This document shows, one piece after another, positions 14,321 through 32,997 of a stretch of 35,573 bases of DNA. The DNA is from Candidatus Poribacteria bacterium. GTDB taxonomy: Bacteria; Poribacteria; WGA-4E; WGA-3G. The stretch is from contig JAJEBZ010000111.1 of assembly GCA_022822275.1 (NCBI GenBank), positions 1 through 35,573 of the forward strand, written 5' to 3'. Each line of letters opens with the position of its first letter. The stretch's first letter is position 1. A program made the position numbers and the translations under genes. The notes below the pieces were generated by a model. The model made no database searches. It was not told the DNA's origin and was given only the letters and a program-made list of their open reading frames with translations.

Positions 14321-14734
14321 TCAGAATGTAGCAGCTTTTTCAAAGAACTCAATATCTACACGCTCAATCTCTGCTGAACGGGCATTCTCCGCCACGCGTT
14401 GCACAACCATCTCCCGTACAAACGGGATCGGAATGCGTTTGACGCGATGCACAACCTCTTCTGTGCAAGGCACGTTTGTATTGTCAAGGAAGGGCCCGTC
14501 CTGCAATGAAACTTCTGCAGGATGATCACATGTCTCAGGTACAAGTTGCTGCAATCGCATTGAGACGTAATCTGTCACCCACTGTTGAAATTTTTCAGTA
14601 TTGTCAGTTTCCACATCTTTCACTTGTGGCGTCTGCTCCAACTTCTCATTGATGCTGACAAGTAGGCTTTCCAATCGTCCCAAACGGTCTTCTACATTGG
14701 TGAGTCGTTCTTGAACGTTAGTTTCGTTGCTCAT
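14321..14734 (-). CDS. Coiled-coil protein with C-terminal PCP_red-like domain
   Basis: The 137-residue protein starts with a heptad coiled coil (VQERLTNVEDRLGRLESLL, about 6-35). After a linker it ends with RVKRIPIPFVREMVVQRVAENARSAE. This matches the small domain found at the end of light-independent protochlorophyllide reductase (PCP_red), seen in three other proteins of this window. AAGGAGGAGAC precedes the ATG. Beyond its TGA the same frame stays open for 24 codons down to a TAG at 14246-14248 and encodes plausible protein (ATEEFPLPDFDWKDFL). The C-terminus may therefore have been lost to a recent nonsense change. It follows the PhyH-like gene but runs away from it by only 9 bp on the same strand. 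Confidence 0.75.
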   Translation of the reverse strand: MSNETNVQERLTNVEDRLGRLESLLVSINEKLEQTPQVKDVETDNTEKFQQWVTDYVSMRLQQLVPETCDHPAEVSLQDGPFLDNTNVPCTEEVVHRVKRIPIPFVREMVVQRVAENARSAEIERVDIEFFEKAATF

Positions 14735-14743
14735 GTCTCCTCC

Positions 14744-15463
14744 TTATATTTTCCAATATTTCCATAGGTTTTCTGGAATTTCGTATCTAATTTCTTCACG
14801 TCTTTTGTGATGGTAACGTGCAAACAGACCGATTCGTGGTATGTCCCGAATATTTCCTGAACCTGTATGGCACAAATAGGCGTGCCATAGAACTACATCT
14901 CCCGCAGATGCGATGAATTCTCGGGGTCCCTCTGGTGATAGATCTGAAAATACATTCCATCCCCACCCCTCAAGTTTGGTAAAACTTCCATCTATCTGTT
15001 CTGGGTATTTCAAGAAGTATTTATGGGTTGTCTTGTGGCTTTTTGGCCAGAAAACGAATGCACCACCACCCGGTTCAACATCGTAGAGATATGTTGTTGT
15101 CCCCATCATAAAAGGGCTCCATCCGCCAGGTCCATAAGCGTCGATGTGTCCACTATGGGGCATTTTCCAATCAGCATCGGGTTTTGGCCATCTCACAAGT
15201 GGTGCACCGCCACCCCCTGAAAACTGACCACCACCTAACTGCTCAACAATCTCTTGCATGGCAGGCAATTGCCCAAAATTTGGGGAGAAACCGAAGTTTT
15301 CTACCACATAATTATCAGGCCAGGTTTCTGGAGTCTCCAAGCTGGAATTGAAATGTTTCCAAATCTGTTCTCGCCATCCATCAAGGACATCTGAATCGAT
15401 AAGTTTTTCAAGGATAAGATATCCGTTTTCTTGAAAAAATTCTACCTGTTTTGTTGTTAGCAT
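14744..15463 (-). CDS. Phytanoyl-CoA dioxygenase (PhyH)-family Fe(II)/2-oxoglutarate oxygenase
   Basis: The 239-residue protein has the PhyH layout. N-terminal EFFQENGYLILEKLID is the family entry helix, His106-x-Asp108 (SGHIDAYG) is the first part of the iron facial triad, His199 in WHAYLCHTGSGN is the distal ligand, and Arg210 in IPRIGLFARYH is the expected 2-oxoglutarate contact. These enzymes hydroxylate or halogenate diverse small molecules; the substrate is unknown here. The ATG at 15463 is preferred over one seven codons upstream because AAAGGAAA sits at the right distance. The coiled-coil PCP_red gene follows its stop by 9 bp on the same strand. Confidence 0.85.
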   Translation of the reverse strand: MLTTKQVEFFQENGYLILEKLIDSDVLDGWREQIWKHFNSSLETPETWPDNYVVENFGFSPNFGQLPAMQEIVEQLGGGQFSGGGGAPLVRWPKPDADWKMPHSGHIDAYGPGGWSPFMMGTTTYLYDVEPGGGAFVFWPKSHKTTHKYFLKYPEQIDGSFTKLEGWGWNVFSDLSPEGPREFIASAGDVVLWHAYLCHTGSGNIRDIPRIGLFARYHHKRREEIRYEIPENLWKYWKI

Positions 15464-15545
15464 GCAAGTTTCCTTTATTGTCAATGTATAATGACTTATG
15501 TTAGTTAACTAAATGTTTTTGTTTTAACAACTATTGAATTTTGGA

Positions 15546-15623
15546 CTATAAACATATCGTCCCTACGGGACTAAAGAGGGCGTGTATGCCGTTTGTCTAT
15601 AAACATATCGTCCCTACGGGACT
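15546..15623. repeat. Two identical 27-bp direct repeats with an internal hairpin
   Basis: The copies at 15546-15572 and 15597-15623 are identical over 27 bp. Each contains GTCCC-TAC-GGGAC, a 5-bp stem. They are 51 bp apart, and the bases following each copy are also partly similar. The text resembles dispersed intergenic repeats of filamentous or symbiotic bacteria. It lies between the radical SAM gene and the PhyH-like gene. Confidence 0.6.
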
Positions 15624-15683
15624 GAAGAGTGAGTATAAGAAAATCGGGATTACAAATTCCTCCTACAGAAGAAGATATGAAGT

Positions 15684-16988
15684 CTAACGCCTCGGCCTGA
15701 AAGAGGGAATGCCCGTTTTATCAAACCGTTCTTTGACCGCTTTCATGAGTTCAGGCGTTATTTCGCGATGTCCGTGTTCTCTTGCATATTTTTCAACGCT
15801 TTTGACGACCATGCCACGTGCAAATGAGGGAACTTTTTTCAGTCTTTGCTCTGCAGCCTCATTCCATATTAGGTCATAGTCTGGTTCTGACGCAAATGCT
15901 GTCCGCTTTTCAAGTTGGACAGGTTGTTGTCCGTGCTGCCCTGGTTGGTATTCACAAGACTCGTCTGCTGCAAGATAGTTACCGGTAGTGGCATAAGCCC
16001 GCGCTCGACAACCGCCACAGACCTCTTTGAATTCACACGCTCCACATTTTCCTTCAAGCAGATTCCGATCACGCAATTCATGAAAGGTTTCCGATTCATT
16101 CCACAGTTTAACAAAACTTTCATCTTTGAGATTGCCAACGCTGACAGGTAGATACGGACACGGTGTCAGTTCACCCTCCGGACTGATACGACAGTAATAG
16201 ATGCCACAAGGGCATGTGCCACTTGGGTATCCTTGTAGGAACGCAGAATCGGACTGCTGCCCATAGATAACACGTTTATAGTGTGGTGCGCATTTCGCTG
16301 CGATGAGCATTTTCCCACTATATTTTGCCTGCAGTTGGAACATCGTCTCAAGCATCTTTTCGTATTGTGCAGGCGTGATGTCCATTACCGTCTTACCTCT
16401 TCCTGTCCGCACAAGAAAATAGAGGTTTAGTACCTTCGCACCTAACTGATAGGCATATTCTACAATCTCAGGGATTTCATCGTAATTCCATTGCGTCACA
16501 GAGGTCTGGACGAGAAAGTCAAGTTTTGCCTGTTTGAGTGCGTCAATGCCGTTCATTGTCGCTTGCCACGCGCCTTCCATGCCCCGAAATTGGTCATGAT
16601 TTTTGGGTTGGATAGAATCAAGACTTATACCCGCACCCGTAACACCGTTTTGTTGCATCTTCTCCACTACGTCATCGTTCAGTAGAACCCCGTTTGTTCC
16701 CATCACAACAAGGAATCCGGTATTGGAAGCATATTTTGAAATCTCCAGAATATCGGGACGCAGCAACGGTTCGCCACCCGTGAGTATCAGCAGAATATGC
16801 GGATTGATTTCGGCTATCTCATCTATCACACGAAAACATTCGGATTGTGTTAACTCTGTTTCCCTAACAAAACCTTGCGGAAATTCATCTGTGTCTACAA
16901 AGCCAGCGGGGAGATAGCAGTGTGTGCATTTCAGATTGCACAACCGGGTGATATTCCATGAGACTGCCTGAATTTTTGTATTATTCAT
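15684..16988 (-). CDS. Radical SAM/SPASM protein with C-terminal PCP_red domain
   Basis: The 434-residue protein carries the radical SAM motif CNLKCTHC (Cys17, Cys21, Cys24) and TGGEPLLRPD. Auxiliary SPASM-type cysteines occur at about 253-260 (CPCGIYYC) and 315-330 (CGACEFKEVCGGC). The overall layout resembles NirJ/AhbC/AhbD enzymes that modify heme precursors and related SPASM maturases. Residues about 376-424 form a PCP_red domain (EQRLKKVPSFARGMVVKSVE..AREHGHREIT). The start codon directly follows the stop of the upstream CopD/HemJ-like gene without a spacer. That neighbour, and the porphyrin-reductase origin of the C-terminal domain, hint at tetrapyrrole chemistry, but peptide maturation is equally possible from sequence alone. 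Confidence 0.85.
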   Translation of the reverse strand: MNNTKIQAVSWNITRLCNLKCTHCYLPAGFVDTDEFPQGFVRETELTQSECFRVIDEIAEINPHILLILTGGEPLLRPDILEISKYASNTGFLVVMGTNGVLLNDDVVEKMQQNGVTGAGISLDSIQPKNHDQFRGMEGAWQATMNGIDALKQAKLDFLVQTSVTQWNYDEIPEIVEYAYQLGAKVLNLYFLVRTGRGKTVMDITPAQYEKMLETMFQLQAKYSGKMLIAAKCAPHYKRVIYGQQSDSAFLQGYPSGTCPCGIYYCRISPEGELTPCPYLPVSVGNLKDESFVKLWNESETFHELRDRNLLEGKCGACEFKEVCGGCRARAYATTGNYLAADESCEYQPGQHGQQPVQLEKRTAFASEPDYDLIWNEAAEQRLKKVPSFARGMVVKSVEKYAREHGHREITPELMKAVKERFDKTGIPSFRPRR

Positions 16989-17447
16989 TTATTTTTTCAA
17001 TAGCAACGCAAGTGCGAAAACAATTAATCCTGAAAAAAGCGTTAGATGTCCAAAAACATTTATATGACGAGGGACACTGATTGGACTATCTGGGTCTGAT
17101 ACTTCAAGGTGTTTGCGATAAAGTGAACTGAACAGTCCCCAAAAGAGAACCATCAATCCAAATGCTGCTAACTTTACAACAGAATATATCATATACTTAG
17201 ACTCTAATTGCATATCGTTGTTCCACGCAACAATAAAGATGACAATTCCACCTGTGAGTAGAAGCATATTTATCATCAATCGCATCCAGTGCCGAAAACG
17301 ATTGTGTATTTCCAGCAAATCTTGTGCTGGTAGGTTTTGCCGACAAATTGGCATTGCGATCAAGGTTGTAAAAAACACACCTCCGAACCAAATTATTGCT
17401 GCGATTAGGTGTATAGATCGGATGAGAAGTTCTACGATATGGCCCAT
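16989..17447 (-). CDS. CopD/HemJ-like four-helix membrane protein
   Basis: The 152-residue protein has four membrane segments. The first reads SIHLIAAIIWFGGVFF, where the conserved His and the Trp-x-Gly pattern match the CopD domain of copper-resistance proteins and the related HemJ protoporphyrinogen oxidase family. FRHWMRLMINMLLLTGG in the second helix also fits. HemJ uses such histidines for heme. Its stop codon abuts the ATG of the radical SAM gene, so the two are surely co-transcribed. Whether it acts on copper or porphyrin cannot be settled here; the gene pair favours tetrapyrrole metabolism. Confidence 0.65.
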   Translation of the reverse strand: MGHIVELLIRSIHLIAAIIWFGGVFFTTLIAMPICRQNLPAQDLLEIHNRFRHWMRLMINMLLLTGGIVIFIVAWNNDMQLESKYMIYSVVKLAAFGLMVLFWGLFSSLYRKHLEVSDPDSPISVPRHINVFGHLTLFSGLIVFALALLLKK

Positions 17448-17455
17448 TTCTAACT

Positions 17456-18181
17456 TTACACTGCATTTGACGTTGGAGTACGAGAATCAACAATCCGAAG
17501 GAGATGACTCGCGAACATGATGATTTCTACAGCTTCCTCTGCTGAAACAGAAACATTTCGATGACTATGCGGATTCTTGTAAAGTCCAATAGATCCAGAA
17601 AAGAGGTGAAGTGTGGCTTCTCTTTCCGCTTTAGGTTGATTTTGATCTGTCAAAGGCCCATTTTCAACTTTAAACGCCTGTCGCATCAAGTCAGTTCCAT
17701 ATTTTTCAGTATAACCACTTGCATCCCGAACAGCTACCTCCACTGCCTTAAATGCTTCAAATATAGCAGTGTCGTACTTGCCCCGTGAAAAGTTTGACCA
17801 GACATCTTCTGTTATTGCAGAGTGAATCAACTGTTTAGGCAAAAGGTTCGCTTTGCGATAGGCTTCCAAATCGGCTGCGTTTATTACACGCTCCCCTTCT
17901 CTGGTAATGGAAACCATGTCATCATGAAATCCTGGAGTAGGTACAATAAAACCTTCTCTGTCTAGGTACATCCATGCTTCCCTGAGTGCATTGGTAATGT
18001 TCTTTTGATGTTCACCAGGGTACTCTTCGACCGTATGTGACGAACTGAAATTATGAAGACTAAATTGGGGGTCACCTTTGGGAAGGGAATGCAGGTACTC
18101 CAAAACAATCCCCGCTAATTCCTCTGGTTCAAGACTTAGCAATACTTCATGGTCTGGTATTAGTTTATAAATTGTCAACAT
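17456..18181 (-). CDS. TIGR02391 (Ymh) family protein
   Basis: The 241-residue protein matches the TIGR02391/Ymh family. The N-terminal half is a winged-helix-like region (NALREAWMYLDREGFIVPTPG). The C-terminal half contains HSAITEDVWSNFSRGKYDTAIFEAFKAVEVAVRD and a late GLYKNPHSHRN. The latter resembles the RNxxxH-type loop of HEPN nucleases, but with Lys in place of Arg. The family is often found near restriction-modification genes and prophages. The ATG at 18181 is chosen because GGGAG lies just upstream; an in-frame TTG at 18193 overlaps that site. It is the last gene of the cassette with the DUF932 and methyltransferase-HNH genes, 94 bp after DUF932. Confidence 0.8.
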   Translation of the reverse strand: MLTIYKLIPDHEVLLSLEPEELAGIVLEYLHSLPKGDPQFSLHNFSSSHTVEEYPGEHQKNITNALREAWMYLDREGFIVPTPGFHDDMVSITREGERVINAADLEAYRKANLLPKQLIHSAITEDVWSNFSRGKYDTAIFEAFKAVEVAVRDASGYTEKYGTDLMRQAFKVENGPLTDQNQPKAEREATLHLFSGSIGLYKNPHSHRNVSVSAEEAVEIIMFASHLLRIVDSRTPTSNAV

Positions 18182-18275
18182 TTTTTCTCCCAATAGGCAA
18201 TGACAAGACTATAGCAAATCAGACGATATATTAAATCAAAGTTATACAATCAGACATATTGTTTTCATTCTAATA

Positions 18276-19298
18276 TTATCCACCAATTATCAGTGTGATC
18301 GGTTTTTCTGTTTTCAACAATGCCTCCATTAAGTGAGGAATATCCATGAGCCAAGCAAGTTGCCCTTGTATTGTTCCTCGCTGACCAGCAATCCAACTTA
18401 GGACTTGACTGATATCGTAGGCATTTCGCACTGGTGCGTACTCATGGGAACCGGGAACCTTATTTATGCTACTAACTTCACGATCATGGGGTTTGACATT
18501 TTTCTCAAATGGTTTGACAATCTCGCCATCATACCCTGTTTTGGCAATATGGTAAACCCTCGCAGCTGCATGGATCCCCCATTTTTTTGCAACAACTTTA
18601 TCAATCCAATGTTCAATTTGGCCAGGGCTTGGCTTTGATTCTGATAACTTCTGGTGAAGTATTTTCCTTTGATGCCAATTCTTATACAAGCGTTGTTCTT
18701 TTGGAAATTGTTCAAGTTGTTCTTTTAAGAATTCTTTGATGTGTTCAAGCAAAAGTGATTGTAAGTGAATTTTTCTGAATCGTGCATCTGAGATACCATA
18801 GGTCATGCCATTACTACAAACAAGGCGTTCTAAACTTAGGTTGATTTCCAAAGCTGTAGTTTTATCCACTGAATTTAAGGCGTTTACTTTAAGCACAATA
18901 GGGTCTCCACCATCTAAATCGAAGTAGTAATCGGGCAAGAAAAAACTTATTTGCATACGTTCGCCATACTCTGTAAGTGCTAGTTCCGCCTCAAGACGCT
19001 GTGGATTAAAGTTAATTTGTTCGAGAGCATCTTCTAACGCTCGGAGAACATCATGATGTTGAATAAGATTATACTGCCTTGAGACAGTCGCAATAGGTAT
19101 ATGCACCGTATCATCATCTGGCAGAAGATAACCATGGTTTTCCTTGAGAGGCTTTCGTACTATGATGTCAAAATGTTGGTTCATTCCCCCGTTTTCTACC
19201 CGAAACGGCTCTCTCCTAAAATAAGGAATCTGCTGCCGGAGCTCATTGATAGACCCTTTGTAGAATTTCACTTTTCTCGCGTGCCATGTAGGTGCCAT
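18276..19298 (-). CDS. DUF932-like phage/plasmid-associated protein
   Basis: The 340-residue protein contains the hallmark LERLVCSNGMTYG (around residue 156), preceded by ALEINLSLERL. This matches the DUF932 family found on plasmids, phages and mobile islands. The upstream half has the typical beta-rich region with YNLIQHHDVLRALEDAL, and the C-terminal half is helical. Its biochemical role is unknown. The ATG at 19298 follows AAAGGAG at a good distance; an in-frame TTG 13 codons earlier is less likely. It starts 45 bp after the methyltransferase-HNH gene and is probably co-transcribed with it. Confidence 0.75.
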   Translation of the reverse strand: MAPTWHARKVKFYKGSINELRQQIPYFRREPFRVENGGMNQHFDIIVRKPLKENHGYLLPDDDTVHIPIATVSRQYNLIQHHDVLRALEDALEQINFNPQRLEAELALTEYGERMQISFFLPDYYFDLDGGDPIVLKVNALNSVDKTTALEINLSLERLVCSNGMTYGISDARFRKIHLQSLLLEHIKEFLKEQLEQFPKEQRLYKNWHQRKILHQKLSESKPSPGQIEHWIDKVVAKKWGIHAAARVYHIAKTGYDGEIVKPFEKNVKPHDREVSSINKVPGSHEYAPVRNAYDISQVLSWIAGQRGTIQGQLAWLMDIPHLMEALLKTEKPITLIIGG

Positions 19299-19343
19299 GT
19301 CATACTCCTTTGAAGGTGGTGCTTGATGGAAACTCAAGTTATT

Positions 19344-20786
19344 TTATATTCCGTTTAAGTTATATTGGTGCGGTGTTTCTTGAATACGTTGGACAAGGTA
19401 TTGCCACGTCCATTCACTTGCTTTCCTTAGATCTATAAGTGTGCCTTCTTTCATGTATCCTTTTTGTTTATTGATTTTACGTAGTTGAGGAAGCGTCATA
19501 CGGTTGCTTTTTTCGAGGTTGCAAGGTTTACACAAAAGCGCACGGTTATTTATATGATGCTGACCATAATCATCCTTTCCACTTTTTGGGTTGATATGGT
19601 CAAGTTCAAGATAGCGTGGATCAGGTGCTTCAAAATTACACCCCCAACAGTAGGGTCCAAACTTCTCTATAAGCGTCTTGTGTATTTCTGCACGCGTCAT
19701 TTGAAATTCTTCGGTAATTGGCAGGACAGGTGGCAACTCGGTTGCTGCGGTTTCTTGATTATCAGTACGGGCAGGTGGTTCTGTTTGGTAGTGCATTTCG
19801 TACGGTTGCATTTGTCTGTCAAGCCATGTTTTATCTCTCGCGTATTGCTCAAGTCGTTCCCGTTCTTTTGGATCAATTCCCATGAGACGTGTGATAATGT
19901 GATAACGTGCGTCCTTACGTCTGTCAATACCTATCCAACGACGGTTGAGGTTATTGGCGGCGATAATCGTTGTTGCACACCCGCAGAATGGGTCTAACAC
20001 AATGTCCCCCTCGCTGCTACTGGCTTCAATGATACGTTCGTAAAGAGTTAGCGGTTTTTGGTCGGGAGAACCAGTACGTTCTTTTGCCATGTTATTTATT
20101 GTTGGTATCCTCCAAACGTCGTGCATTAGTTTTCCCTTCTCGTTTGGACTGTACCGTGGATCACCGTAACTAGCAGATGCTTTTACCCAATTACTATCTG
20201 CTGCATAAGGTTCGCGCATACTATCCCAATTAAAAAGCGTTGCTTTACTTTTGGCATAGAAGAAGATTGTGTCATGCTTACGCCCAAGGAATTTCCTTGA
20301 TGTTGATGCAACATTGTAATAATGCCACACAACCTCATTTCGAAAGTTGTTTTTCCCGAAGATAGCATCCATTACCATTCGGATGTAACTATTAACGTTG
20401 TGATCGCAGTGTAAATAAATTGACCCCGTGTCTTTTAGGATACGATGCATTTCAAGGAGTCGGACGCTGAGAAAACAAAGAAATGCTGCGGTGTCTTCGT
20501 CTCTAACAACTTTTGTGGCTTCAATAACTTTGTAGAGTGCAGGGTGACCGTCTTGAATAGTTTCAAGCCATTTGGGATGAACTTCATTCCACTTCCATTG
20601 ATCAGGTAGTTTGTCTGTGTCTCCGTATTTCCACTTATCAACGTAGAATCCAGCAGAACCACTTCGATTCCGCTTGGTATTGAACGGTGGGTCAGTTGCA
20701 ATGAGGTCTATGCTATTGCTATTAATTCCACGTAGTACCTCTAAATTGTCCATTTCGTAGAGTGTATTGGCTATGTCTTGTGTCAT
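19344..20786 (-). CDS. DNA methyltransferase fused to a C-terminal HNH domain
   Basis: The 480-residue protein has an N-terminal amino-methyltransferase domain of beta-type motif order. The catalytic motif DPPFNT lies at residues 32-37 and the SAM-binding motif DPFCGCATT follows at about 264-272. Residues about 378-427 form an HNH nuclease module: CWGC, the ELDHINPKSGKDDYG core, HHINNRALLC and CKPCN, with all four zinc cysteines and the HNH histidines present. Modification and cleavage activities could thus reside in one chain, or the HNH domain may serve only in DNA binding. The ATG at 20786 is favoured because AGGAG lies 9 nt before it and directly abuts the earlier ATG at 20795. A mobile-like element begins 59 bp upstream of the start codon. 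Confidence 0.85.
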   Translation of the reverse strand: MTQDIANTLYEMDNLEVLRGINSNSIDLIATDPPFNTKRNRSGSAGFYVDKWKYGDTDKLPDQWKWNEVHPKWLETIQDGHPALYKVIEATKVVRDEDTAAFLCFLSVRLLEMHRILKDTGSIYLHCDHNVNSYIRMVMDAIFGKNNFRNEVVWHYYNVASTSRKFLGRKHDTIFFYAKSKATLFNWDSMREPYAADSNWVKASASYGDPRYSPNEKGKLMHDVWRIPTINNMAKERTGSPDQKPLTLYERIIEASSSEGDIVLDPFCGCATTIIAANNLNRRWIGIDRRKDARYHIITRLMGIDPKERERLEQYARDKTWLDRQMQPYEMHYQTEPPARTDNQETAATELPPVLPITEEFQMTRAEIHKTLIEKFGPYCWGCNFEAPDPRYLELDHINPKSGKDDYGQHHINNRALLCKPCNLEKSNRMTLPQLRKINKQKGYMKEGTLIDLRKASEWTWQYLVQRIQETPHQYNLNGI

Positions 20787-20820
20787 GAAAAGCATCTCCT
20801 CATATTTGTCAAGTCTGAAA

Positions 20821-20844
20821 CTACTTATCTACTTATCTACTTAT
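20821..20844. repeat. Three tandem copies of CTACTTAT
   Basis: Three perfect 8-bp units lie side by side. The last one borders the left terminal inverted repeat of the adjacent element, and a fourth copy (21326-21333) borders its right end. The array therefore probably represents the target sequence, with one unit duplicated on insertion. Confidence 0.8.
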
Positions 20845-21325
20845 GGGCGTGTAAAGTTTTTGTACAATACATATTTTGCTTGTTTTTTGCAATGCTTAAA
20901 TAGAATTATGCACTCAATTTGTCGTTAGCACTGATTCTGCAAAACATACCACGTGGTATGAAATATCATACCGTGGTATGTTTTGTAAATTGGCTTTTAA
21001 TCCAGTCGTAGTAAGGTCTGAAAGGCGTTTTTTTCGAAAACATAATTTTTTTGAGTTTTTTATCTTTTTTTGAGTTTTGTGTGTTTTTTTGCTGCGTTTT
21101 CATGTCTATGGAATTCTGGAATGGAATTTTCCTCTCTGACAGATAAACCTTATTAGATAGTACTTTTTGAGTTGAGACGTTGATTTTTTGTTTTTCATAG
21201 TTATATTATACATTATTTTCGGTGAGTACAATTTTGTTTTTAGTGTTTAGTTATTGGGATTTCCAATAAGTTTAATGTGTATTTGGATTTATTGAAAAAT
21301 TCAGTACAAAAACTTTACACACCCA
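20845..21325. mobile_element. MITE-like non-coding element with IS256-type terminal inverted repeats
   Basis: The left end (20845-20865) and the right end (21304-21324) are inverted repeats matching at 20 of 21 bases. They begin GGGYGTGTAAAG and continue TTTTTGTAC. Each end is bordered by CTACTTAT (20837-20844 and 21326-21333), an 8-bp direct repeat that fits a target-site duplication. The TGTGTAAA-type end and the 8-bp duplication match the IS256 (Mutator) family. The 0.44-kb interior is AT-rich, holds no gene and contains the large palindrome at 20940-20985. A transposase from a full-length relative would be needed for movement. Confidence 0.75.
20940..20985. repeat. Nested palindrome with cruciform potential
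   Basis: Outer arms CAAAACATACCACG (20940-20953) and its exact complement (20972-20985) enclose inner arms GGTATGA and TCATACC around an AATA loop. The left half alone is a perfect 16-bp palindrome (20945-20960), and the right half (20967-20980) is the same sequence lacking two bases. The whole can fold as one long hairpin or as two small ones. It could be an operator or a transposase/DNA-structure site. Confidence 0.7.
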
Positions 21326-21335
21326 CTACTTATTG

Positions 21336-21376
21336 CGTAAACTTATATACTCTCACATCTCTCATAAAAGTTTACG
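21336..21376. repeat. Inverted repeat next to the mobile element
   Basis: CGTAAACTT (21336-21344) and AAGTTTACG (21368-21376) are perfect 9-bp inverted repeats with a 23-bp spacer. They resemble the AAACT/AGTTT stem found at 71-83 at the start of the window. Confidence 0.45.
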
Positions 21377-21451
21377 TCTTGTGCAACCATATCTGGATTT
21401 CCTATCTGACTGAAAACGGATAAGTCAATCGTATAAGATAAAAGCAGGTTA

Positions 21452-22153
21452 TCAAGAACTGCGTGCTTGCAGACGCGCAAGTTCTTCTCGGAGTTGTGCG
21501 TTTTCTGCTTCTGCAGCTTCGGCACGTGCTTCCGCATTATCGGCACGTATTGCTTCAGCTTCCGCGCGTGTTCGGACCCAGTCGTTCGCAACAGGATCAT
21601 AAATACCTATTTCTCCATCCCGTATCCGAAAATCTAAATCCAGAGCAGAGGAACGGATACCTCCATTCTCATCTGGGGAAATTGCTACGTAGCTGCCATC
21701 TACTAATTCATAGCCCATCAGTTGGGAAGGTAAATATACATCCTCTGCATCATATAAAAAGTAGTTCTTTATGCCAAGGGACGCATAAATATCCATCTTA
21801 TCTGTCAAGTCATTCCTATACGTGCTTTCACTACTAAACTCCATCACGAAATCTGGCACTTTTCCCTCTTCCCAAACCAAGTATGTTCGGCGTAGTTTCA
21901 TTCCTATGCCGAATGTGACGAGAACATCTGGTGATATAGACTTACTGGGAACACCTTGCAAGTAATACATCAGAATATCGCCGGAGATATAGACTGATGG
22001 GTCATGTGAGAAATATGCTTCAAGTGCCGCTAATGTCCAATATAATTGGTGTCTGTGACGATCGCTTGCTGCCATCGGTTTTCCATCCTCTGAAGGATAA
22101 AGTGCATCTGTTGGGACAAAAGGGAGCTTGTATTTTTTAATTTCAGTATCCAT
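21452..22153 (-). CDS. Uma2-family putative endonuclease with C-terminal coiled coil
   Basis: The 233-residue protein carries the Uma2 core: DRHRHQLYWTLAALEAYF, then SPDVLVTFG and FVMEFSSESTYRNDLTDKMDIYASLGIKNYF, providing the expected Asp and Glu of a PD-(D/E)XK site. Residues about 195-233 form an Ala/Glu-rich coiled coil (RADNAEARAEAAEAENAQLRE), a common extension in Uma2 proteins and probably used for oligomerisation. AAGGAGAACATTATG precedes it, almost the same leader as the Uma2 gene at 13609-14181. It shares little beyond the core with that protein, so the two are not recent copies. Confidence 0.88.
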   Translation of the reverse strand: MDTEIKKYKLPFVPTDALYPSEDGKPMAASDRHRHQLYWTLAALEAYFSHDPSVYISGDILMYYLQGVPSKSISPDVLVTFGIGMKLRRTYLVWEEGKVPDFVMEFSSESTYRNDLTDKMDIYASLGIKNYFLYDAEDVYLPSQLMGYELVDGSYVAISPDENGGIRSSALDLDFRIRDGEIGIYDPVANDWVRTRAEAEAIRADNAEARAEAAEAENAQLREELARLQARSS

Positions 22154-22263
22154 AATGTTCTCCTTTACTATAAGATGCGCGAACTAAGGTTATGATTTTA
22201 TTCTTTCCATTTTATATATAAATTATAGTCTAAAATTGGAAGGGCTTCAAGTGTTTTAAGGCG

Positions 22264-22791
22264 TTAGAACTGTGCGGGAAAGTTACCACGTGCAGCGTCC
22301 ATTACTTCAGCAGTGATTTCGGCATGTCCGTTCTCTTTAGCAAAACTCTCAATCCCCATTTTTGCCATCGGGCGTACAAAACTTGGGATACGTTCCAGGC
22401 GTTCCAATGCCTCAGGTGTCCACTTAAGACCTTCTGGTTCAGCGGGTTCGGCTGTTTCCTCAAAAGCGTCTGAGATGACAGAGGTAAAAGGGCATTTTCC
22501 GCCTTCTGCCTTTTCGCCAATTCCAGTTTCTGAGGATATATCTGACATTAAATCCTGCTTCCCAGTTTCTAACTGTGACCGCACCATTTGCATCGGTTGT
22601 GCTGCTTCGTTGTTGCCACCGAGTTTCAGGTCCAAGGATTTTAGCATCTGCGTTTCCGATGGATTTAGAAACATAGCGATCTCTGTAAAACAGTCTGGGC
22701 ATTCAAAAACTGCTGTGACGGAGCCTTGTTCAGGTCGGGTTACGTCCTTAAACTTCATGGCAGTGTCGCAGTCTATACATAAGAATTTCAT
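22264..22791 (-). CDS. Zinc-ribbon protein with C-terminal PCP_red domain
   Basis: The 175-residue protein begins with a four-cysteine ribbon (Cys5, Cys8, Cys31 and Cys34; CIDC and CPDC) that may bind zinc or iron. After a low-complexity linker it ends in a textbook PCP_red domain (about 126-172: LERLERIPSFVRPMAKMGIE..AKENGHAEIT). It is the last gene of a run with the Mrp/NBP35 ATPase (39 bp upstream), the PQQ-propeller lipoprotein and the universal stress protein. That setting suggests a part in Fe-S or redox protein handling, but no activity can be assigned. Confidence 0.75.
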   Translation of the reverse strand: MKFLCIDCDTAMKFKDVTRPEQGSVTAVFECPDCFTEIAMFLNPSETQMLKSLDLKLGGNNEAAQPMQMVRSQLETGKQDLMSDISSETGIGEKAEGGKCPFTSVISDAFEETAEPAEPEGLKWTPEALERLERIPSFVRPMAKMGIESFAKENGHAEITAEVMDAARGNFPAQF

Positions 22792-22830
22792 TGGTTATTC
22801 TCCATATTTTCTACATATTGGTGGCGGACA

Positions 22831-23712
22831 TTATGTTTGAAAAAAGTCTTGTACCTTTTGTGCTATCTCTCTGATGGTTTTGCTTGCGGGGGTATCGGGA
22901 TATTCATTTAAATAAGGTGTGCCGTTATCGTTACAACGTGAGAGTTTCGGATCAAAAGGAATTTTGCCGAGAGTTGTAAGCTGGAATGCATTATTCGGTG
23001 TATCTTCAACGGAGAAAAGTGGTTCGTGTTCACCACAGTGTTTACACACATAGAATGCCATATTTTCAACAACCCCGATAATCGGGACTTTGAGGATATC
23101 CCTTGCCATTGTTACAGATTTCTTGACAATCAGATGTGAGACTTCAGAGGGAATTGTCACGACGATCACACCCCCCAAATTCGGGATAAGTTCAACCACA
23201 TTCGGCAGGCGATCAGTACCTGGTGGTAGATCCAGCAAGAGATAGTCCAACTCTCCCCAGTCGGTATCGCCGATAAACTCCCGCAGAGCACTTACCTCCA
23301 TAGTGGAACGCCATGTGAAAGCATCCTTTTGTGAGTGTGCGTTCCACAGGACGGGTGCATCATCTTCAGTTAGGAGCAGATCCATTGAGATGATTTTCGT
23401 GCCGAGTTTGGTAGTTGCTGGTTTGACACCGGTAGCTGCATATTCAAGTGTTGCGTTACGCACCCCCATCATCTTTGCGATTGTTGGACCGTTGATGTCA
23501 GCATCCACAACACCGACATTTTGCCCTGCCAGTGTCAATGCAGTCGCGAGGTTTGCAGTCACAGCACTTTTACCGACCCCCCCTTTGCCACTCATTATCG
23601 CGACAGTTCGTTGAACAGACGTAAGCCGTTTACTGATGCGGTTGGCTTGTGCTGTGACTTGCCCGACAATGTTGGAACCGGCATCATCTGGGAGTTCTTT
23701 GTAACTTTTCAC
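22831..23712 (-). CDS. mrp: Mrp/NBP35-family Fe-S cluster carrier ATPase
   Basis: The 293-residue P-loop protein contains GKGGVGKS at 42-49, GVVDADINGPT, LLDLPPGTD and the conserved CKHC pair (Cys223 and Cys226) that binds a bridging Fe-S cluster at the dimer interface. Family members receive and deliver Fe-S clusters to target proteins in the cytoplasm. There is no DUF59 domain at the N-terminus, which some Mrp proteins have. Translation seems to start at GTG (23712), 2 bp after the stop of the PQQ-propeller gene, and no suitable ATG lies before the P-loop. The neighbouring zinc-ribbon PCP_red protein is a candidate partner. Confidence 0.9.
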   Translation of the reverse strand: MKSYKELPDDAGSNIVGQVTAQANRISKRLTSVQRTVAIMSGKGGVGKSAVTANLATALTLAGQNVGVVDADINGPTIAKMMGVRNATLEYAATGVKPATTKLGTKIISMDLLLTEDDAPVLWNAHSQKDAFTWRSTMEVSALREFIGDTDWGELDYLLLDLPPGTDRLPNVVELIPNLGGVIVVTIPSEVSHLIVKKSVTMARDILKVPIIGVVENMAFYVCKHCGEHEPLFSVEDTPNNAFQLTTLGKIPFDPKLSRCNDNGTPYLNEYPDTPASKTIREIAQKVQDFFQT

Positions 23713-23714
23713 TT

Positions 23715-25037
23715 TTACTTTTTCTGCCCGATGGCGTATAGTGCGTCATAACTGCGCAAGTACAATGTGCCATCTGCAATAACTGGGGATGCTGCCACGG
23801 TTTCGTCAATGGAATTCGTCGCCACGATTTCAAATTCGCGTCCTGCCTTAACAACGGTGACAACACCGTCCCGAGCTGCTAAATAGAGATGGCCGTTAGC
23901 ATAGACAGGTGAGGAACGATGTCTGTGACGGTGTGTTCGCATCCGATAAAGTTGTTCGCCGGTTTTGGCATCAATACAGATAAGATCACCGTTTTCTCTG
24001 CAGAGATAAACAAGCCCATCATGGATAAGAGGGGAAGGTACGTCTGGTGTGCCTCGTCCAAGTTTCCAGATTTGCCACTTGGTGTCTGTAATATCTCCTG
24101 TTCCCGATGGGTCTAAACCCAGAACAGGTCCGTTCTTTGCAGAAGGCACCACAATAAGTCCTTCTGTTGCTACAGGTGATGCAACCAAACGGAATGAGGG
24201 ATTATAGCTGTTTTGAGGATTTATGCCACCACACCGCCAAATTTCTGTGCCATCTTCAAGATTGTGTGCAGTTACATAGTCTGCACCGTGAACAACAAGA
24301 AATTCGCGTTCTGCATCCCGGTAAAGAATTGGAGAGGTATAGGCGTGTTCACATTCTCTCCTTGCATCGCTTTTGCGGTCATGCTTCCAGATCTCTTCAC
24401 CAGTCATTTTGTCCAGCGCAAGCACTAACCATGCGTTGCTATGGATGAGTTGAAGGTATAACTTATCTTTATCTAAAATCGGTGACATTGACATAAGAAA
24501 GCCGAGTCTAAACCGACCGTAACGTTCCTCAAGATTTGTCTGCCAGATAGGATTTCCTTCAATATCATAGCAGGCAAGATCACCTGTTCCGAGAAACGCC
24601 CAGACATGCTTACCATCAGTCGTTGGCGAAGGCGCAGCGAAGTTGACTTCATCACCGCGGGAAGTGCGATTACCTTGTGCCATTGTGCGTTTCCACAGTT
24701 CTTCTCCTTGCGTGCTAATACACATGAGAACGAGGGAAGTTTCTTCAGCGGATGTTAGGAAGATTTTCTTTCCCCACACAACGGGTGTGGAAGCTGCTTC
24801 ACCCGGTAACGGAAATCGCCAGCGGACATTGTCTGTCTGTGTCCACTGAGTTGGCACATCAGTTTCAGAACTGATGCCATCGTTATTTGGTCCCCGCCAC
24901 TGATTCCAATTATTTGAGGATGTGGTTGTAGGAACAGTGGTTGTATCAGATACATTTTGGGCACAACTCGTTATAAAGATAGCAAGTGTTATCAAACTCA
25001 GAATAGTTAGTGCATTTCTAAAGACCTTTTTCATCAT
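23715..25037 (-). CDS. PQQ-like beta-propeller lipoprotein
   Basis: The 440-residue protein has a lipoprotein-type N-terminus ending in FITSC (Cys around residue 25). A WNQWRGPNNDGIS start and repeated propeller blades follow (GEELWKRTMAQG, GNPIWQTNLEERYG, GEEIWKHDRKSD, GTEIWRCGG, GEQLYRMRTH). Such eight-bladed PQQ-like repeats occur in BamB-like proteins and secreted scaffolds. No PQQ or metal ligand set is evident, so enzymatic dehydrogenase activity is unlikely. GGAGGG precedes an ATG pair at 25037/25034, which I prefer to an ATG 6 codons upstream. It follows the universal stress protein gene by 27 bp and precedes mrp by 2 bp. Confidence 0.85.
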   Translation of the reverse strand: MMKKVFRNALTILSLITLAIFITSCAQNVSDTTTVPTTTSSNNWNQWRGPNNDGISSETDVPTQWTQTDNVRWRFPLPGEAASTPVVWGKKIFLTSAEETSLVLMCISTQGEELWKRTMAQGNRTSRGDEVNFAAPSPTTDGKHVWAFLGTGDLACYDIEGNPIWQTNLEERYGRFRLGFLMSMSPILDKDKLYLQLIHSNAWLVLALDKMTGEEIWKHDRKSDARRECEHAYTSPILYRDAEREFLVVHGADYVTAHNLEDGTEIWRCGGINPQNSYNPSFRLVASPVATEGLIVVPSAKNGPVLGLDPSGTGDITDTKWQIWKLGRGTPDVPSPLIHDGLVYLCRENGDLICIDAKTGEQLYRMRTHRHRHRSSPVYANGHLYLAARDGVVTVVKAGREFEIVATNSIDETVAASPVIADGTLYLRSYDALYAIGQKK

Positions 25038-25064
25038 CGTGTCCCTCCGTTTCATTAGTTCCGT

Positions 25065-26981
25065 TTAGTTTTCTTGGCTATTTCCATTGCTTGATTGTTG
25101 GTAGTATTCGCCTAATACTTCATTTGCGAGGCTTCTACCATCTTCTATGACACGTGCGGCGAAGTCGAGCGTAACCTGTGAAATACCCATCTCCTGTGCG
25201 CGCTGTTCAATGCGTGTTTGCGTGATGTTTCGCATAAATCCTGCGGGAACTAAGTTCAACCGTTCTACTGCATCATCTGTCCATTGTATGCTACTTTCAA
25301 AGGCAGCGGTGGTTTCAGTGTTTTGTTTTTCAGATTGCGTTTGCATGGCTTTAAGTTCGGGGGCATCTTCACGTACTGCTGCTGCTTCACCCATGCTGTC
25401 GTCAATGATTTGCATGGCAAATTCATTTGTGATCGTGCTGATTTTTTGGGAACGGGCAGATTTTTCTATCCGTGCTTTCACATTGCGCCGCATATAACCA
25501 CGTGGTACGGTGCGTAACGCTTTCTTTGATTGTTCAGACCATTGCAAGCGAACACCATCAAAAGTTTCCTCTTCTGCAGTGCCACCTTCATCAATTGCGA
25601 TGTGTTCAAGCGAATCTTTGTCAACCATTTGGAACCGTTCTGGTGGAGAACTACAGACAGGACATTTGACGGGTTGATGATTGTGTGCTGCGTAGCCACA
25701 TTCCCCGCAGATATAGGTTTGTACAGCACCAGCTTCTAAAACCTTCTGCTCTGCTATCTCTTTTGCGACACGCGTTAGTTTTTCTGAGGCGCGCTGTGGC
25801 ATAATCGCTTCCATCGCTTTATCAATCACACTTTCGGTAATTACGGAATGACCACGTTCTATAGCGAATCGGTGCACTGCAGTTTTGGCAATGCCGCGTA
25901 CTAATGGCGGTGCTTTCTCCATCCGATCCATCGCCTCTTGTGTCCAAACGAGGGTCTCCTCTGCCTTTACATCAATTTGCGGAAAATAACGTTGACTTGA
26001 GAGCAGCACGTTGCATGGGGCAAGTCGTAGCAGGTTTTCAGCTGTGCTCCCGATGTCTGAATCTTGTTCATTATGCACACCGATTCTACCTATAACAAGG
26101 AGCCATGGCTCGGTTTTTCGCGTGTATTGTAAGATTTTTTCATACGCTTTGCCATCAAGGAGGGTAATCTTGAGTTGATAGTCATGTTCCTCTTTAGCGA
26201 TAGAACGGGCAACTTCAAGATGAGACTGGTAGATTTTTGCAAGGCCTGTATCAATAACTTCCTCGTGTAGTTGCTCCTGTTCTTTGAATCTAAAGGTTCT
26301 CGCTGCACGTTCCGTTAGCACATTCACAACGGAATTGAATACAATATAATGCAGATAGGGGTCGTAAACACCGACAGCTTCCACCTGTCTGTTGAATTTT
26401 TGTCCGAGACGTATTGCGGTTTTCAATCCTGAGAAAGATTCAGGGCTTCCGTCAATACCGACGAGGATATTACCGGTTTGTTCTTTTATGGGTTCAAGGT
26501 TTCGCACGATGAGCGTGTCAGTTGTGATGCGCCGAACAACGCGTTCACACACACCGCCGATGAGGCTATCCTTGACTGCCCCCATGCCGAGTGCCCCCAT
26601 GATCACCAAATCGTATTCGCTTTCTTGAATGTCTTCTACCAGTTTGATGTAGTGTTTGCCTTCGGGCATTTTCGGTTCAAACGGAATATTAAACTTTTCG
26701 CATTTCTGTTTCATTACCTCAAGATATGAATCCGAAATGAGTTGAAGGCCCATTGTAATGAGTGTATCGTGTATGCGGCGCTGTTTTTCAAGCTCAACTT
26801 CATCTTGATATTCTTCCGGCAGCGTATATTCCATCTGCTTGAAACGGACATCGTGCATCTTTGCAGCATAGACGTGTGATCCGATCAACTGCGAATCAAA
26901 TTGCTTCGCAAATTCAACAGCTAAGTCAATACTGGCATCGGAATAATCTGAATTATCAACCGGAACGTATATTCTTTTCAT
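25065..26981 (-). CDS. Tandem UspA protein with three PCP_red domains and a rubredoxin-like zinc/iron knuckle
   Basis: This 638-residue protein has an unusual layout. UspA domain 1 covers about 1-160 and UspA domain 2 about 170-328. Domain 2 carries the full ATP-binding pattern G-2x-G-9x-GS (298-312); domain 1 has GG in place of the final GS. Next come PCP_red unit 1 (346-394, MDRMEKAPPLVRGIAKTAVH), a rubredoxin-like knuckle with YICGECGY and CPVCSSPPERF (Cys425, 428, 440, 443), and PCP_red units 2 (about 481-530) and 3 (about 567-614). The four cysteines could hold iron or zinc. I infer a cytoplasmic sensor or adaptor joining nucleotide binding and redox. It follows the cytochrome oxidase genes by 35 bp and leads into the PQQ, Mrp and zinc-ribbon genes. 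Confidence 0.8.
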   Translation of the reverse strand: MKRIYVPVDNSDYSDASIDLAVEFAKQFDSQLIGSHVYAAKMHDVRFKQMEYTLPEEYQDEVELEKQRRIHDTLITMGLQLISDSYLEVMKQKCEKFNIPFEPKMPEGKHYIKLVEDIQESEYDLVIMGALGMGAVKDSLIGGVCERVVRRITTDTLIVRNLEPIKEQTGNILVGIDGSPESFSGLKTAIRLGQKFNRQVEAVGVYDPYLHYIVFNSVVNVLTERAARTFRFKEQEQLHEEVIDTGLAKIYQSHLEVARSIAKEEHDYQLKITLLDGKAYEKILQYTRKTEPWLLVIGRIGVHNEQDSDIGSTAENLLRLAPCNVLLSSQRYFPQIDVKAEETLVWTQEAMDRMEKAPPLVRGIAKTAVHRFAIERGHSVITESVIDKAMEAIMPQRASEKLTRVAKEIAEQKVLEAGAVQTYICGECGYAAHNHQPVKCPVCSSPPERFQMVDKDSLEHIAIDEGGTAEEETFDGVRLQWSEQSKKALRTVPRGYMRRNVKARIEKSARSQKISTITNEFAMQIIDDSMGEAAAVREDAPELKAMQTQSEKQNTETTAAFESSIQWTDDAVERLNLVPAGFMRNITQTRIEQRAQEMGISQVTLDFAARVIEDGRSLANEVLGEYYQQSSNGNSQEN

Positions 26982-27016: not shown

Positions 27017-27289
27017 TTACTCTGTTTTCGTGTCATTATAAGGCTTGTAACGAGAACCGATAACACCTCCGAGGATATGTGCAAGTAGTACCGCTGGCCA
27101 TAAATAGACCATTGCTGTTTGCCATTGCCAGTGGAGAACAAAACGTCGAACAACAAAGTTTAGTACAATTGGTATGTATAGACATCTACTCCAAGGACGA
27201 CTAAACTTTTTATATCGTACCCGTAAAAAACCGAAAGGAAAATGAACCACAAACGCAGCAATGGAAATTAAAAGGTTTATATCCTTCAT
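27017..27289 (-). CDS. Small membrane protein at the end of the cox cluster
   Basis: The 90-residue protein has two or three membrane segments (about 5-22, 38-55 and 60-79) with a basic stretch RVRYKKFSRPWSR between the first two. Its ATG overlaps the SCO1/SenC stop as ATGA, so the two are co-translated. The family is not recognised. Its place among oxidase genes suggests a minor assembly or accessory subunit, which is inference only. Confidence 0.6.
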   Translation of the reverse strand: MKDINLLISIAAFVVHFPFGFLRVRYKKFSRPWSRCLYIPIVLNFVVRRFVLHWQWQTAMVYLWPAVLLAHILGGVIGSRYKPYNDTKTE

Positions 27290-27921
27290 TTTTTAAGGAG
27301 TGCTTTGACATCCTCGCGTAAAGTGTTCATCATGGGTTTGCTACGACTATCGTAGTAGTCATGAATGTATCCATCTGGTGTTACGAGAGCAAACCTCGTA
27401 CTATGGGGAAACCCGCCTCCATGATCTCCAGCGGCTAATTTGAAACCTTCGTTAGCCAATTGGTATATCTGTTCCTTTTCACCTGTTAGGAAATGCCATC
27501 GTTCTTGGTCTGCTCCATATTGCACTGCATAACGCGTGAGTACATCTGGCGTGTCTCTTTCAGGGTCAACTGTGAAGGAAACGAAATAGACGGGTTCTGC
27601 ATTGAATTCCGATTGTAGTTTAACCATTTCCTCTGTCATTATAGGGCAAATTGTCGGACAGTGCGTAAATATAAAATCTGCGATCCAGATTTTTCCTTTC
27701 AAGTCAGATAATTTTACTGGCTGTTCTTTCTGATTCGTGAGAGCGAAATCGGGAACGTTGATTGGATCGTCCTTTTGGGTTATCTCCTGTTTTTTATTGA
27801 AAACTAACCATAGATTGAGTATTGAAATCCCGATAACAATTAGTCCAAGTACTATCCATGGTAATGTTTTTTTGTCAATTTTTCGTTCATCTTCGCTGAG
27901 GTGCCCTTCCTGATTTTCCAT
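27286..27921 (-). CDS. sco: SCO1/SenC/PrrC-family copper chaperone
   Basis: The 211-residue protein has an N-terminal membrane anchor (about 21-42) and a thioredoxin-like domain. The copper site is complete: Cys88 and Cys92 in HCPTIC, and His173 in GGFPHSTRF. SFTVDPERDTPDVLTRYA is the family hallmark. SCO proteins deliver copper to, or reduce, the CuA centre of cytochrome c oxidase subunit II outside the membrane, which fits its place next to the cox genes. The domain faces the periplasm. It is 36 bp after the subunit IV gene. Confidence 0.92.
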   Translation of the reverse strand: MENQEGHLSEDERKIDKKTLPWIVLGLIVIGISILNLWLVFNKKQEITQKDDPINVPDFALTNQKEQPVKLSDLKGKIWIADFIFTHCPTICPIMTEEMVKLQSEFNAEPVYFVSFTVDPERDTPDVLTRYAVQYGADQERWHFLTGEKEQIYQLANEGFKLAAGDHGGGFPHSTRFALVTPDGYIHDYYDSRSKPMMNTLREDVKALLKK

Positions 27922-27957
27922 AATTGTCGTCCCTGAGTTGATAGAGTTTTCCGAATT

Positions 27958-28293
27958 TTAGTGGGCGTTTGTATCAGCGGACTCTGCAGCAGGTGCTACT
28001 TCATCAAGTCGTGAATCGTTAGTGAGATCGGGCATGAGCATAATGACAAGGAAAACGCATATAAGAAACGGTGTAATCACAATTACTGCTAAAGTGCGTT
28101 TTTCAAGTTTCAGATGCATAAAATAGGCAGCAACTAAGAACGCCTTACCGCATGCCAAACCGATGAGTAGGATAGCTTTGAGCACAACAGAGTATTCGGG
28201 AATTGCAACCCCAATTTCAATGGCAGTCAGGATAGCAAGCCACAAGAAGATGTACATATACTTCGGATGTTCTTTATGTCCATTTTGAGCCAT
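27958..28293 (-). CDS. Cytochrome c oxidase subunit IV family protein
   Basis: The 111-residue protein has three membrane helices and the start KYMYIFLWLAILTAIEIGVA, followed by LIGLACGKAFLVAAYFMHLKLEKR. This is the typical pattern of bacterial subunit IV (CyoD/CtaF-like). It stabilises the oxidase complex and has no redox centres. The tail after residue 88 is acidic and hydrophilic. AGGAGG lies just before the ATG, and the gene follows subunit III by 12 bp. Confidence 0.85.
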   Translation of the reverse strand: MAQNGHKEHPKYMYIFLWLAILTAIEIGVAIPEYSVVLKAILLIGLACGKAFLVAAYFMHLKLEKRTLAVIVITPFLICVFLVIMLMPDLTNDSRLDEVAPAAESADTNAH

Positions 28294-28305
28294 ATTTATG
28301 TCCTC

Positions 28306-28956
28306 CTACAGTAGATAGATGAAAGTGAAAACCATAATCCAAATGAGGTCAACGAAGTGCCAATAGAGTCCAACGATTTCAACCTCATGGTGAAAATCAG
28401 CTGTATATCTTCCCCGTAAACCATTTATCAATATAACAGCAAGATAAATCACACCACCGGTTACGTGCAAGCCGTGGAATCCGGTGATAGTATAGAAAGT
28501 TGGACCGAAGAGTGTTGAACCACTAATTGTGTCGCCGGACAAACCGTGTTCTGGAATCCCAGTGAGTGTTAATCCATGTTTTATCAGATGTGTCCATTCA
28601 TACGCTTGCAGTCCAAGAAATATCACACCGCCTAAGATGGTCAAGCCAAGGAACGTACACATCCGAGACACGTTTCCTTTCTGAATTGACTCTAAGGCTT
28701 TAACCATTGTGACGCTACTGCAGATTAGTAGAAACGTCATACCTGCAGTTAGGTTGATACCGAGTATTTCACTTGGGGGAACCCATCCGAGTGCGCCAGC
28801 ACCAGCGCGGAGTGCAGCATAAACTGCAAGCAATGCACCGAACGACATGGTATCCCCGATGAGGAATATCCACATGCCGAGTTTGCCGAGGCTATCAGGT
28901 GTAAGCGAAGGTTCGTATACGTCTTCTGTATGTTCTAAAGTGGTAGCTTGTTCCAC
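28306..28956 (-). CDS. coxC: Cytochrome c oxidase subunit III (first of two copies)
   Basis: The 216-residue protein has about five membrane helices. It carries LGMWIFLIGDTMSFGALLAVYAALRAG, LQAYEWTHLIKHG, FYTITGFHGLHVTGGVIYLAVI and HHEVEIVGLYWHFVDLIWIMVFTFIYLL, all subunit III hallmarks. Translation appears to begin at GTG (28956), with AGGAGT 8 nt upstream; no ATG fits before the first motif. It lacks the first two helices of long CoxC forms, as usual for this short class. A second, more divergent subunit III-like gene lies at 30176-30766. Confidence 0.9.
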   Translation of the reverse strand: MEQATTLEHTEDVYEPSLTPDSLGKLGMWIFLIGDTMSFGALLAVYAALRAGAGALGWVPPSEILGINLTAGMTFLLICSSVTMVKALESIQKGNVSRMCTFLGLTILGGVIFLGLQAYEWTHLIKHGLTLTGIPEHGLSGDTISGSTLFGPTFYTITGFHGLHVTGGVIYLAVILINGLRGRYTADFHHEVEIVGLYWHFVDLIWIMVFTFIYLL

Positions 28957-29024
28957 TATACTTCACTCCTTTTTTATTGAAATGCCAAGCACAGTAAATT
29001 TGTGCTTCATATTAGTATTTTTTA

Positions 29025-29894: not shown

Positions 29895-29936
29895 TGCTGC
29901 CTCGTAGTGTATATCCTTTTCTTTATGAAATGAACT

Positions 29937-30164: not shown

Positions 30165-30175
30165 AAACACCTCCA

Positions 30176-31007: not shown

Positions 31008-31028
31008 TTGTTGTCTCCAATAAAAAAA

Positions 31029-31955: not shown

Positions 31956-31964
31956 TGTTTTATC

Positions 31965-32945: not shown

Positions 32946-32976
32946 GTCAATTACCGCAGGATGTTTTGGGGTAATA

Positions 32977-32997
32977 GGCGCGTGTTACAATCGCGCC
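32977..32997. promoter_or_regulatory. GC-rich hairpin between coxA and ctaA
   Basis: GGCGCG (32977-32982) and CGCGCC (32992-32997) form a 6-bp GC-only stem with a 9-nt loop in the 70-bp gap after coxA. In the direction of transcription no T tract follows, so it is more likely an mRNA-stabilising or attenuating stem than a full terminator. Confidence 0.35.

Follow-up and report, generated by a model that had tools for sequence, protein, structure and literature searches.

PCP_red domains on four proteins of a conserved gene set beside respiratory genes in Poribacteria and other phyla

The stretch of DNA analysed here (the window) is 35,573 nucleotides long and covers positions 1–35,573 of one contig of a Candidatus Poribacteria genome (GCA_022822275.1, JAJEBZ010000111.1). 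It carries a locus in which PCP_red (PF08369), the C-terminal domain of BchB/ChlB in dark-operative protochlorophyllide reductase (DPOR), occurs repeatedly. A profile search of the whole genome (4.53 Mb, 320 contigs) with PF08369 returned six matches at this locus, distributed over four proteins that are all encoded on the minus strand: a zinc-ribbon protein (ZnR-PCP), a radical SAM protein (rSAM-PCP), a universal stress protein (Usp-PCP, or Usp-PCP3 for its three copies), and a coiled-coil protein (CC-PCP). Five of the six matches exceed the curated cut-off of 32.5 bits, the coiled-coil copy falling below it (22–24 bits), and Pfam scans of the individual proteins concur with the genome-level search. 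The six copies are:

22288..22422, minus strand: PCP_red of ZnR-PCP (PF08369, 68.5 bits)
15732..15866, minus strand: PCP_red of rSAM-PCP (62.6 bits)
25815..25946, minus strand: PCP_red copy 1 of the Usp protein (47.5 bits)
25419..25541, minus strand: PCP_red copy 2 of the Usp protein (32.9 bits)
25161..25283, minus strand: PCP_red copy 3 of the Usp protein (38.4 bits)
14333..14461, minus strand: PCP_red of CC-PCP (23.7 bits, E = 2.7e-4, below the cut-off)

The PCP_red motif of the coiled-coil protein, HRVKRIPIPFVREMVVQRVAENAR, is almost invariant across 21 relatives. A Foldseek search with an AlphaFold model of CC-PCP gave 2L09 and 2KRU, both PCP_red structures, as the best PDB matches (probability 0.99–1.00, root-mean-square deviation 1.3–1.8 Å), and 2KRU was also the top PDB match for a model of the Usp C-terminal region. 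The Usp and CC-PCP models both reproduce the 2KRU/2L09 fold, with Foldseek E-values of 0.04–0.14, moderate mean pLDDT (predicted local distance difference test) values of 67 and 72, and low pTM (predicted template modelling) scores of 0.27 and 0.37, respectively. The coiled-coil copy appears genuine despite its sub-cut-off score because its motif is conserved in 21 relatives and its modelled fold finds PCP_red structures first. A sequence-only reading of this DNA had described six copies of one domain, similar to the C-terminal domain of DPOR, in four proteins; the PF08369 scores bear this out for five copies and the predicted fold for the sixth, and the likeness to DPOR is seen both in these scores and in the top matches of the two models. 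The sub-cut-off score is what could be said for regarding the six segments as unrelated helices or remnants of a lost chlorophyll pathway. That explanation is refuted for five copies by their above-cut-off scores, and the structural matches, the strong conservation in ~70 genomes, and the slot-specific orthology across phyla described below leave it with practically no probability.

A seventh PF08369 match in the genome is noise (14.1 bits), and the 320 contigs hold no further convincing copy. Since BchB would itself match PF08369, the genome therefore has no BchB, in keeping with the earlier remark that chlorophyll genes are lacking. Likewise, none of the carriers matches full-length BchB/ChlB; only the C-terminal part aligns, at 46–68 bits against cut-offs of 490–509. 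The alignment of the domain contains no conserved Cys or His in any column, so that docking fits better than metal binding. The fold also weakly resembles the small domains of AAA+ proteins in both models.

The carriers differ in the domains that accompany PCP_red:

25065..26981, minus strand: Usp-PCP3, two universal-stress-protein domains followed by PCP_red, a rubredoxin-like domain, PCP_red, and PCP_red (638 residues; PF00582 116.8 bits, PF08369 in three stretches, PF21349 20.7 bits)
25632..25715, minus strand: rubredoxin-like domain of the Usp protein, residues 423–450, CxxC...CxxC (PF21349 below the Pfam cut-off; phmmer match to rubrerythrin at 1.4e-5)
22264..22791, minus strand: ZnR-PCP, N-terminal CxxC...CxxC ribbon and C-terminal PCP_red (175 residues; PF08369 65.9 bits in the protein scan)
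15684..16988, minus strand: rSAM-PCP, AhbD/NirJ-like radical SAM, SPASM, and PCP_red (434 residues; PF04055 87 bits, PF13186, PF08369; TIGR04545 328 bits against a cut-off of 500)
14321..14734, minus strand: CC-PCP, coiled coil and C-terminal PCP_red (137 residues; PF08369 22.3 bits in the protein scan, below the cut-off; Foldseek matches 2L09 and 2KRU)

The rubredoxin-like segment sits between PCP_red copies 1 and 2 of the Usp protein. The four ribbon cysteines of ZnR-PCP are invariant in the alignment, and CC-PCP was encountered in Poribacteria only. The following neighbours share the strand of the carriers:

27286..35550, minus strand: aa3-type cytochrome c oxidase operon (coxB, coxA, ctaA, ctaB, cox3, cox3, cox4, SCO1), upstream of the PCP_red set
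23715..25055, minus strand: PQQ/BamB-like β-propeller lipoprotein (PF13360 88 bits; synteny)
22831..23712, minus strand: Mrp/NUBPL-type Fe-S carrier P-loop ATPase (PF10609 242 bits; MrpORP 241 bits, below the equivalog cut-off)
16989..17447, minus strand: CopD/HemJ-like membrane protein (CopD 30.8 bits, UPF0093 22.3 bits; synteny)

Mrp passes the PF10609 cut-off, and its Walker A motif KGGVGKS and CxxC are conserved in 20 sequences. Together with ctaA, ctaB, coxA, and coxB, this match upholds the earlier placement of the carriers beside an Mrp ATPase and heme A genes. The CopD-like protein falls below the cut-offs of both families (32.1 bits for CopD and 34.2 for UPF0093, the HemJ family); its gene is conserved upstream of rSAM-PCP and also adjoins rSAM-PCP in a Nitrospirota locus (L214). 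Two N6/N4 DNA methylase genes (19344-20795 and 29025-29894) interrupt the respiratory operon, one of them as a fusion with an HNH domain; the one at 29025-29894 lies between the cox3 genes and is absent from many relatives.

We compared the locus across genomes, nearly all of which are metagenome-assembled genomes (MAGs). PCP_red is present in 71 of 85 Poribacteria genomes, nearly all with exactly six copies, and the other 14 have none. The positive genomes make up families f1–f3, nearly all sequenced members of which keep the set, plus one odd genome (G007) whose contig is a possible binning error. The genes fall into two modules. Module A runs cox-ctaAB-SCO1, a 90-residue protein, Usp-PCP3, PQQ, Mrp, and ZnR-PCP; module B consists of the CopD-like gene, rSAM-PCP, and CC-PCP. 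The two adjoin each other in some genera and are distant on closed chromosomes in others, but both are retained. Even with the halves apart, Mrp is always beside ZnR-PCP (19 of the 19 Poribacteria module-A loci fetched) and the CopD-like gene beside rSAM-PCP in order-level relatives, and many Poribacteria keep the PQQ/BamB-like gene between Usp-PCP and Mrp. Genes for Uma2, methylase, Ymh, DUF932, and PhyH proteins vary in presence across these loci and probably lie outside the system.

The set extends beyond Poribacteria. Scanning GTDB contigs with the C-terminal region of rSAM-PCP and taking the best 80 loci, we found PCP_red-fused radical SAM proteins in Gemmatimonadota, Brocadiales, and Nitrospiraceae. 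They also occur in MAGs that bear a Gammaproteobacteria label, a number of which group inside Gemmatimonadota in the radical SAM tree. Among these 80 loci, 17 that are Gemmatimonadota-like contain Mrp, ZnR-PCP, Usp-PCP, and rSAM-PCP together, and the Mrp and ZnR-PCP genes overlap by 4 bases in several loci (e.g., L080, L088, L089, L111). At least three PCP_red copies, usually on one contig, occur in 41 of 150 Gemmatimonadota genomes; ten more have two copies, mostly with one in a BchB-sized frame. PF08369 matches were found in 63 of 118 genomes of the phylum of the Nitrospiraceae MAG and in 51 of 75 genomes of Brocadia's class. The anammox bacteria carry Usp-PCP and rSAM-PCP, and Nitrospirota have MRP-ZNR-PCP2 and USP-PCP3(rubredoxin)-rSAM-PCP-CopD arrangements. 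A 334-residue Nitrospirota protein consists almost wholly of tandem PCP_red (L206:7531-8532, L215:10219-11220).

For 76% of PCP_red copies, the nearest copy in another phylum sits in a protein of the same type, versus 31% for shuffled labels (46% in the best of 2000 shuffles). A branch of the radical SAM tree with moderate support (84 in the Shimodaira–Hasegawa-like approximate likelihood-ratio test) sets all PCP-bearing sequences apart, and AhbD is their neighbour. The same-slot pairing across phyla and the tree together indicate that the carrier architecture is old rather than a local duplication. Co-occurrence with mrp and the radical SAM gene across genomes, a check proposed in the sequence-only reading, is thus found both in the set kept within Poribacteria and in its recurrence elsewhere. 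The PCP_red set is almost certainly a conserved system.

The locus in the window is part of a larger respiratory cluster interrupted by the contig end, and most of the respiratory module associated with the PCP_red set lies beyond the window. In Poribacteria (L220, L221), the genes upstream of cox encode a Rieske protein, cytochrome b, an eight-CxxCH cytochrome c, a plastocyanin-like protein, and a bd-I-like membrane protein, followed by three c-type cytochromes (one fused to EB_dh) and an ABC transporter before coxB. This upstream part sits on a separate contig in the window's own genome (L221; G000 C151). The bd-I-like gene is present in 67 of 69 PCP_red-positive and 0 of 14 PCP_red-negative Poribacteria, counts that take no account of descent, so that a Fisher p value computed from them overlooks it too and is not to be read literally. 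Gemmatimonadota, G007, and Brocadia likewise have this gene next to the PCP_red set, along with the associated respiratory genes. The Usp-PCP gene of Brocadia pituitae is flanked by these cytochrome genes on one side and, on the other, by genes for EB_dh, 4Fe-4S, NarJ-like, and molybdopterin subunits (NxrC/B/A-like), which form the nxr cluster. We are confident that the PCP_red set belongs with the respiratory cluster.

ATP binding and stress responses are common among Usp domains, and Usp-PCP contains the rubredoxin-like segment, so PCP_red might be a stress or redox regulatory module, with Usp-PCP sensing ATP or oxidants to tune the respiratory chain and the other carriers acting downstream. 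A gene annotated as UspA, kustd1706, is also listed in the nxr cluster of K. stuttgartiensis (PMC6423088). Such a role leaves Mrp, the zinc ribbon, and a radical SAM protein with intact Fe-S ligands unaccounted for, and we consider it rather unlikely. Another accessory gene of that cluster, kustd1705 (NXR-T), was rejected as its Usp protein, NXR-T being a cytochrome (PMC8387239).

The families closest to rSAM-PCP are AhbD and NirJ2. The best NCBIfam match is to AhbD (TIGR04545), at 328 bits against a cut-off of 500, compared with 496–501 bits for the AhbD of anammox bacteria. The radical SAM CX3CX2C motif and the SPASM and auxiliary-cluster cysteines of AhbD are retained, except at position 197, where Cys is replaced by Arg or Lys within a TGRG/TGKG-like stretch. 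In the small sample compared, ten positions, this one included, differ fixedly between rSAM-PCP and AhbD. Cysteines kept alongside fixed differences fit an active enzyme with a substrate other than that of AhbD.

The likeness to AhbD raises the possibility that the cell relies on rSAM-PCP to decarboxylate coproheme or coproporphyrinogen without oxygen, as an AhbD- or HemN-like heme b synthase in which PCP_red would aid porphyrin binding as in DPOR, with the other proteins in support. HemF was not found in the Poribacteria searched, nor was HemN above its cut-off. Moreover, in one locus (L085:9251-12762), a radical SAM gene with three PCP_red copies overlaps hemY, the sole hemY found in that genome, which however also has a clear HemN. 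Every order-level Poribacteria genome tested, also in family f4, which has no PCP_red, encodes ferrochelatase (HemH), HemY, and a divergent HemQ-family protein; in the window's genome, the HemQ match is confined to the C-terminal half, at about 60 bits. That genome also has an operon of hemE-like (by inspection), metallo-β-lactamase/TPR-like, hemH, and hemY genes (L151:6879-11842). Good HemQ matches were obtained in the three Gemmatimonadota genomes tested, and anammox genomes encode an AhbD (~500 bits) separate from rSAM-PCP, so that no host lacking another coproheme decarboxylase was found among those tested. Because the hosts have a HemQ-family protein, HemN, or a separate AhbD and the AhbD cut-off is failed, rSAM-PCP is probably not the heme b synthase. 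The HemQ, HemH, HemY, HemN, HemF, and AhbD searches led us to reject this role as the leading idea, and it seems improbable.

Peptides and proteins are frequent substrates of SPASM radical SAM enzymes, and rSAM-PCP may modify a protein or peptide such as a cytochrome or oxidase subunit, which PCP_red would recognise, with no tetrapyrrole handled. The lack of conserved Cys or His in PCP_red, its weak likeness to AAA+ small domains, and the Arg/Lys in place of an AhbD cysteine are compatible with this option, which we regard as possible but doubtful: no small precursor peptide was seen at a conserved place, the nearest families are heme enzymes, and PCP_red is found in BchB as well as next to ahbA-ahbB. 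The latter case is an anammox-class fusion protein with PCP_red at the N-terminus of NIR_SIR-4Fe4S, encoded directly upstream of ahbA-ahbB, both above their cut-offs (L209:8835-10660, L213:9538-11802), with hemC near these genes in L213. This fusion, the largely kept Fe-S cysteines of the AhbD/NirJ-like protein, Mrp beside ZnR-PCP, and the rubredoxin-like segment of the Usp protein all agree with the Fe-S or tetrapyrrole context suspected earlier.

We favour, at a probability of roughly 0.45, a reading in which the locus encodes a cofactor-maturation or assembly set for a multiheme respiratory module, with PCP_red as its docking module. Mrp and ZnR-PCP would supply or transfer Fe-S clusters, rSAM-PCP would catalyse radical chemistry on a tetrapyrrole or a client that bears heme, and Usp-PCP with its rubredoxin-like segment might serve as an ATP-sensing scaffold or electron donor. 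PCP_red would be a small helical module that unites the carriers or brings them onto one client; a docking or substrate-lid role is, judging from the alignment, more likely than metal ligation. The data show that the domain is there, that its carriers have a fixed architecture, that they are conserved and their genes linked across phyla, and that the set is linked to the respiratory cluster; that PCP_red docks, what the client and its reaction are, and in which order the steps run is what we infer. Several points weigh against this assembly set. Support for docking by PCP_red is indirect, and a protein-only or regulatory role is possible; the respiratory cluster may merely be a convenient neighbour; co-occurrence in Poribacteria is confounded by descent, since apart from G007 the genomes concerned amount to little more than one clade; only one locus places hemY next to rSAM-PCP; and the reading gives no account of the PQQ, PhyH, and methylase genes. 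A bolder version, possible but doubtful, makes PCP_red the general docking domain of an undescribed, phylum-crossing system that matures the cofactors of a multiheme respiratory chain and is associated with nxr in anammox bacteria; its PCP_red-tagged AhbD/NirJ-type radical SAM enzyme would produce a novel heme derivative or modify a heme protein.

A literature search of open-licence papers yielded no published account of such a PCP_red system. The groups that retain the set (sponge Poribacteria, Gemmatimonadota, Nitrospirota, and anammox bacteria) are uncultured and of environmental importance, and the recurrence of the set beside respiratory and nitrite-oxidation genes points to a putative, undescribed helper system for building heme or Fe-S respiratory enzymes. 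For heme or Fe-S maturation that is unexplained in these chains, the carriers offer candidates open to testing. The distribution also suggests that the DPOR C-terminal domain may have a role wider than chlorophyll synthesis; were PCP_red a general docking domain, chlorophyll's DPOR would be one specialised user of a more widespread respiratory domain. PF08369 is among the Pfam markers used for pre-screening genomes for chlorophototrophy (PMC12815261). Because 71 of 85 Poribacteria match through this system, it is unsafe as a phototrophy marker on its own and would give false candidates in pre-screening.

Like Brocadia Usp-PCP, kustd1706 is a Usp gene in an nxr cluster; the two are likened by annotation and position only, and PMC6423088 does not describe a PCP_red domain. 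NXR-T is likewise an accessory gene product of the nxr cluster, but it is a monoheme cytochrome four-helix bundle rather than a Usp-PCP protein. The Mrp protein shares with Mrp/ApbC/NUBPL Fe-S carriers a P-loop ATPase with KGGVGKS and CxxC; it differs in being coupled to a zinc-ribbon PCP_red protein and in falling below the MrpORP and ApbC equivalog cut-offs. The radical SAM-SPASM core of rSAM-PCP is homologous to AhbD and NirJ2 (TIGR04545, TIGR04055), whereas its scores lie below both cut-offs, a PCP_red is added at the C-terminus, and one auxiliary cysteine is replaced. Asr4154 of Nostoc (PDB 2L09, 62 residues) is another PCP_red outside BchB, but it stands alone, whereas the domains here are fused to larger proteins. 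Finally, the C-terminal PCP_red of BchB/ChlB in DPOR (PDB 2KRU, 2XDQ) has the same Pfam family and fold as the copies described here, and BchB is likewise an Fe-S/tetrapyrrole enzyme; in Poribacteria, by contrast, the domain is carried by four other proteins, free of the nitrogenase-like BchB domain and of a chlorophyll pathway.

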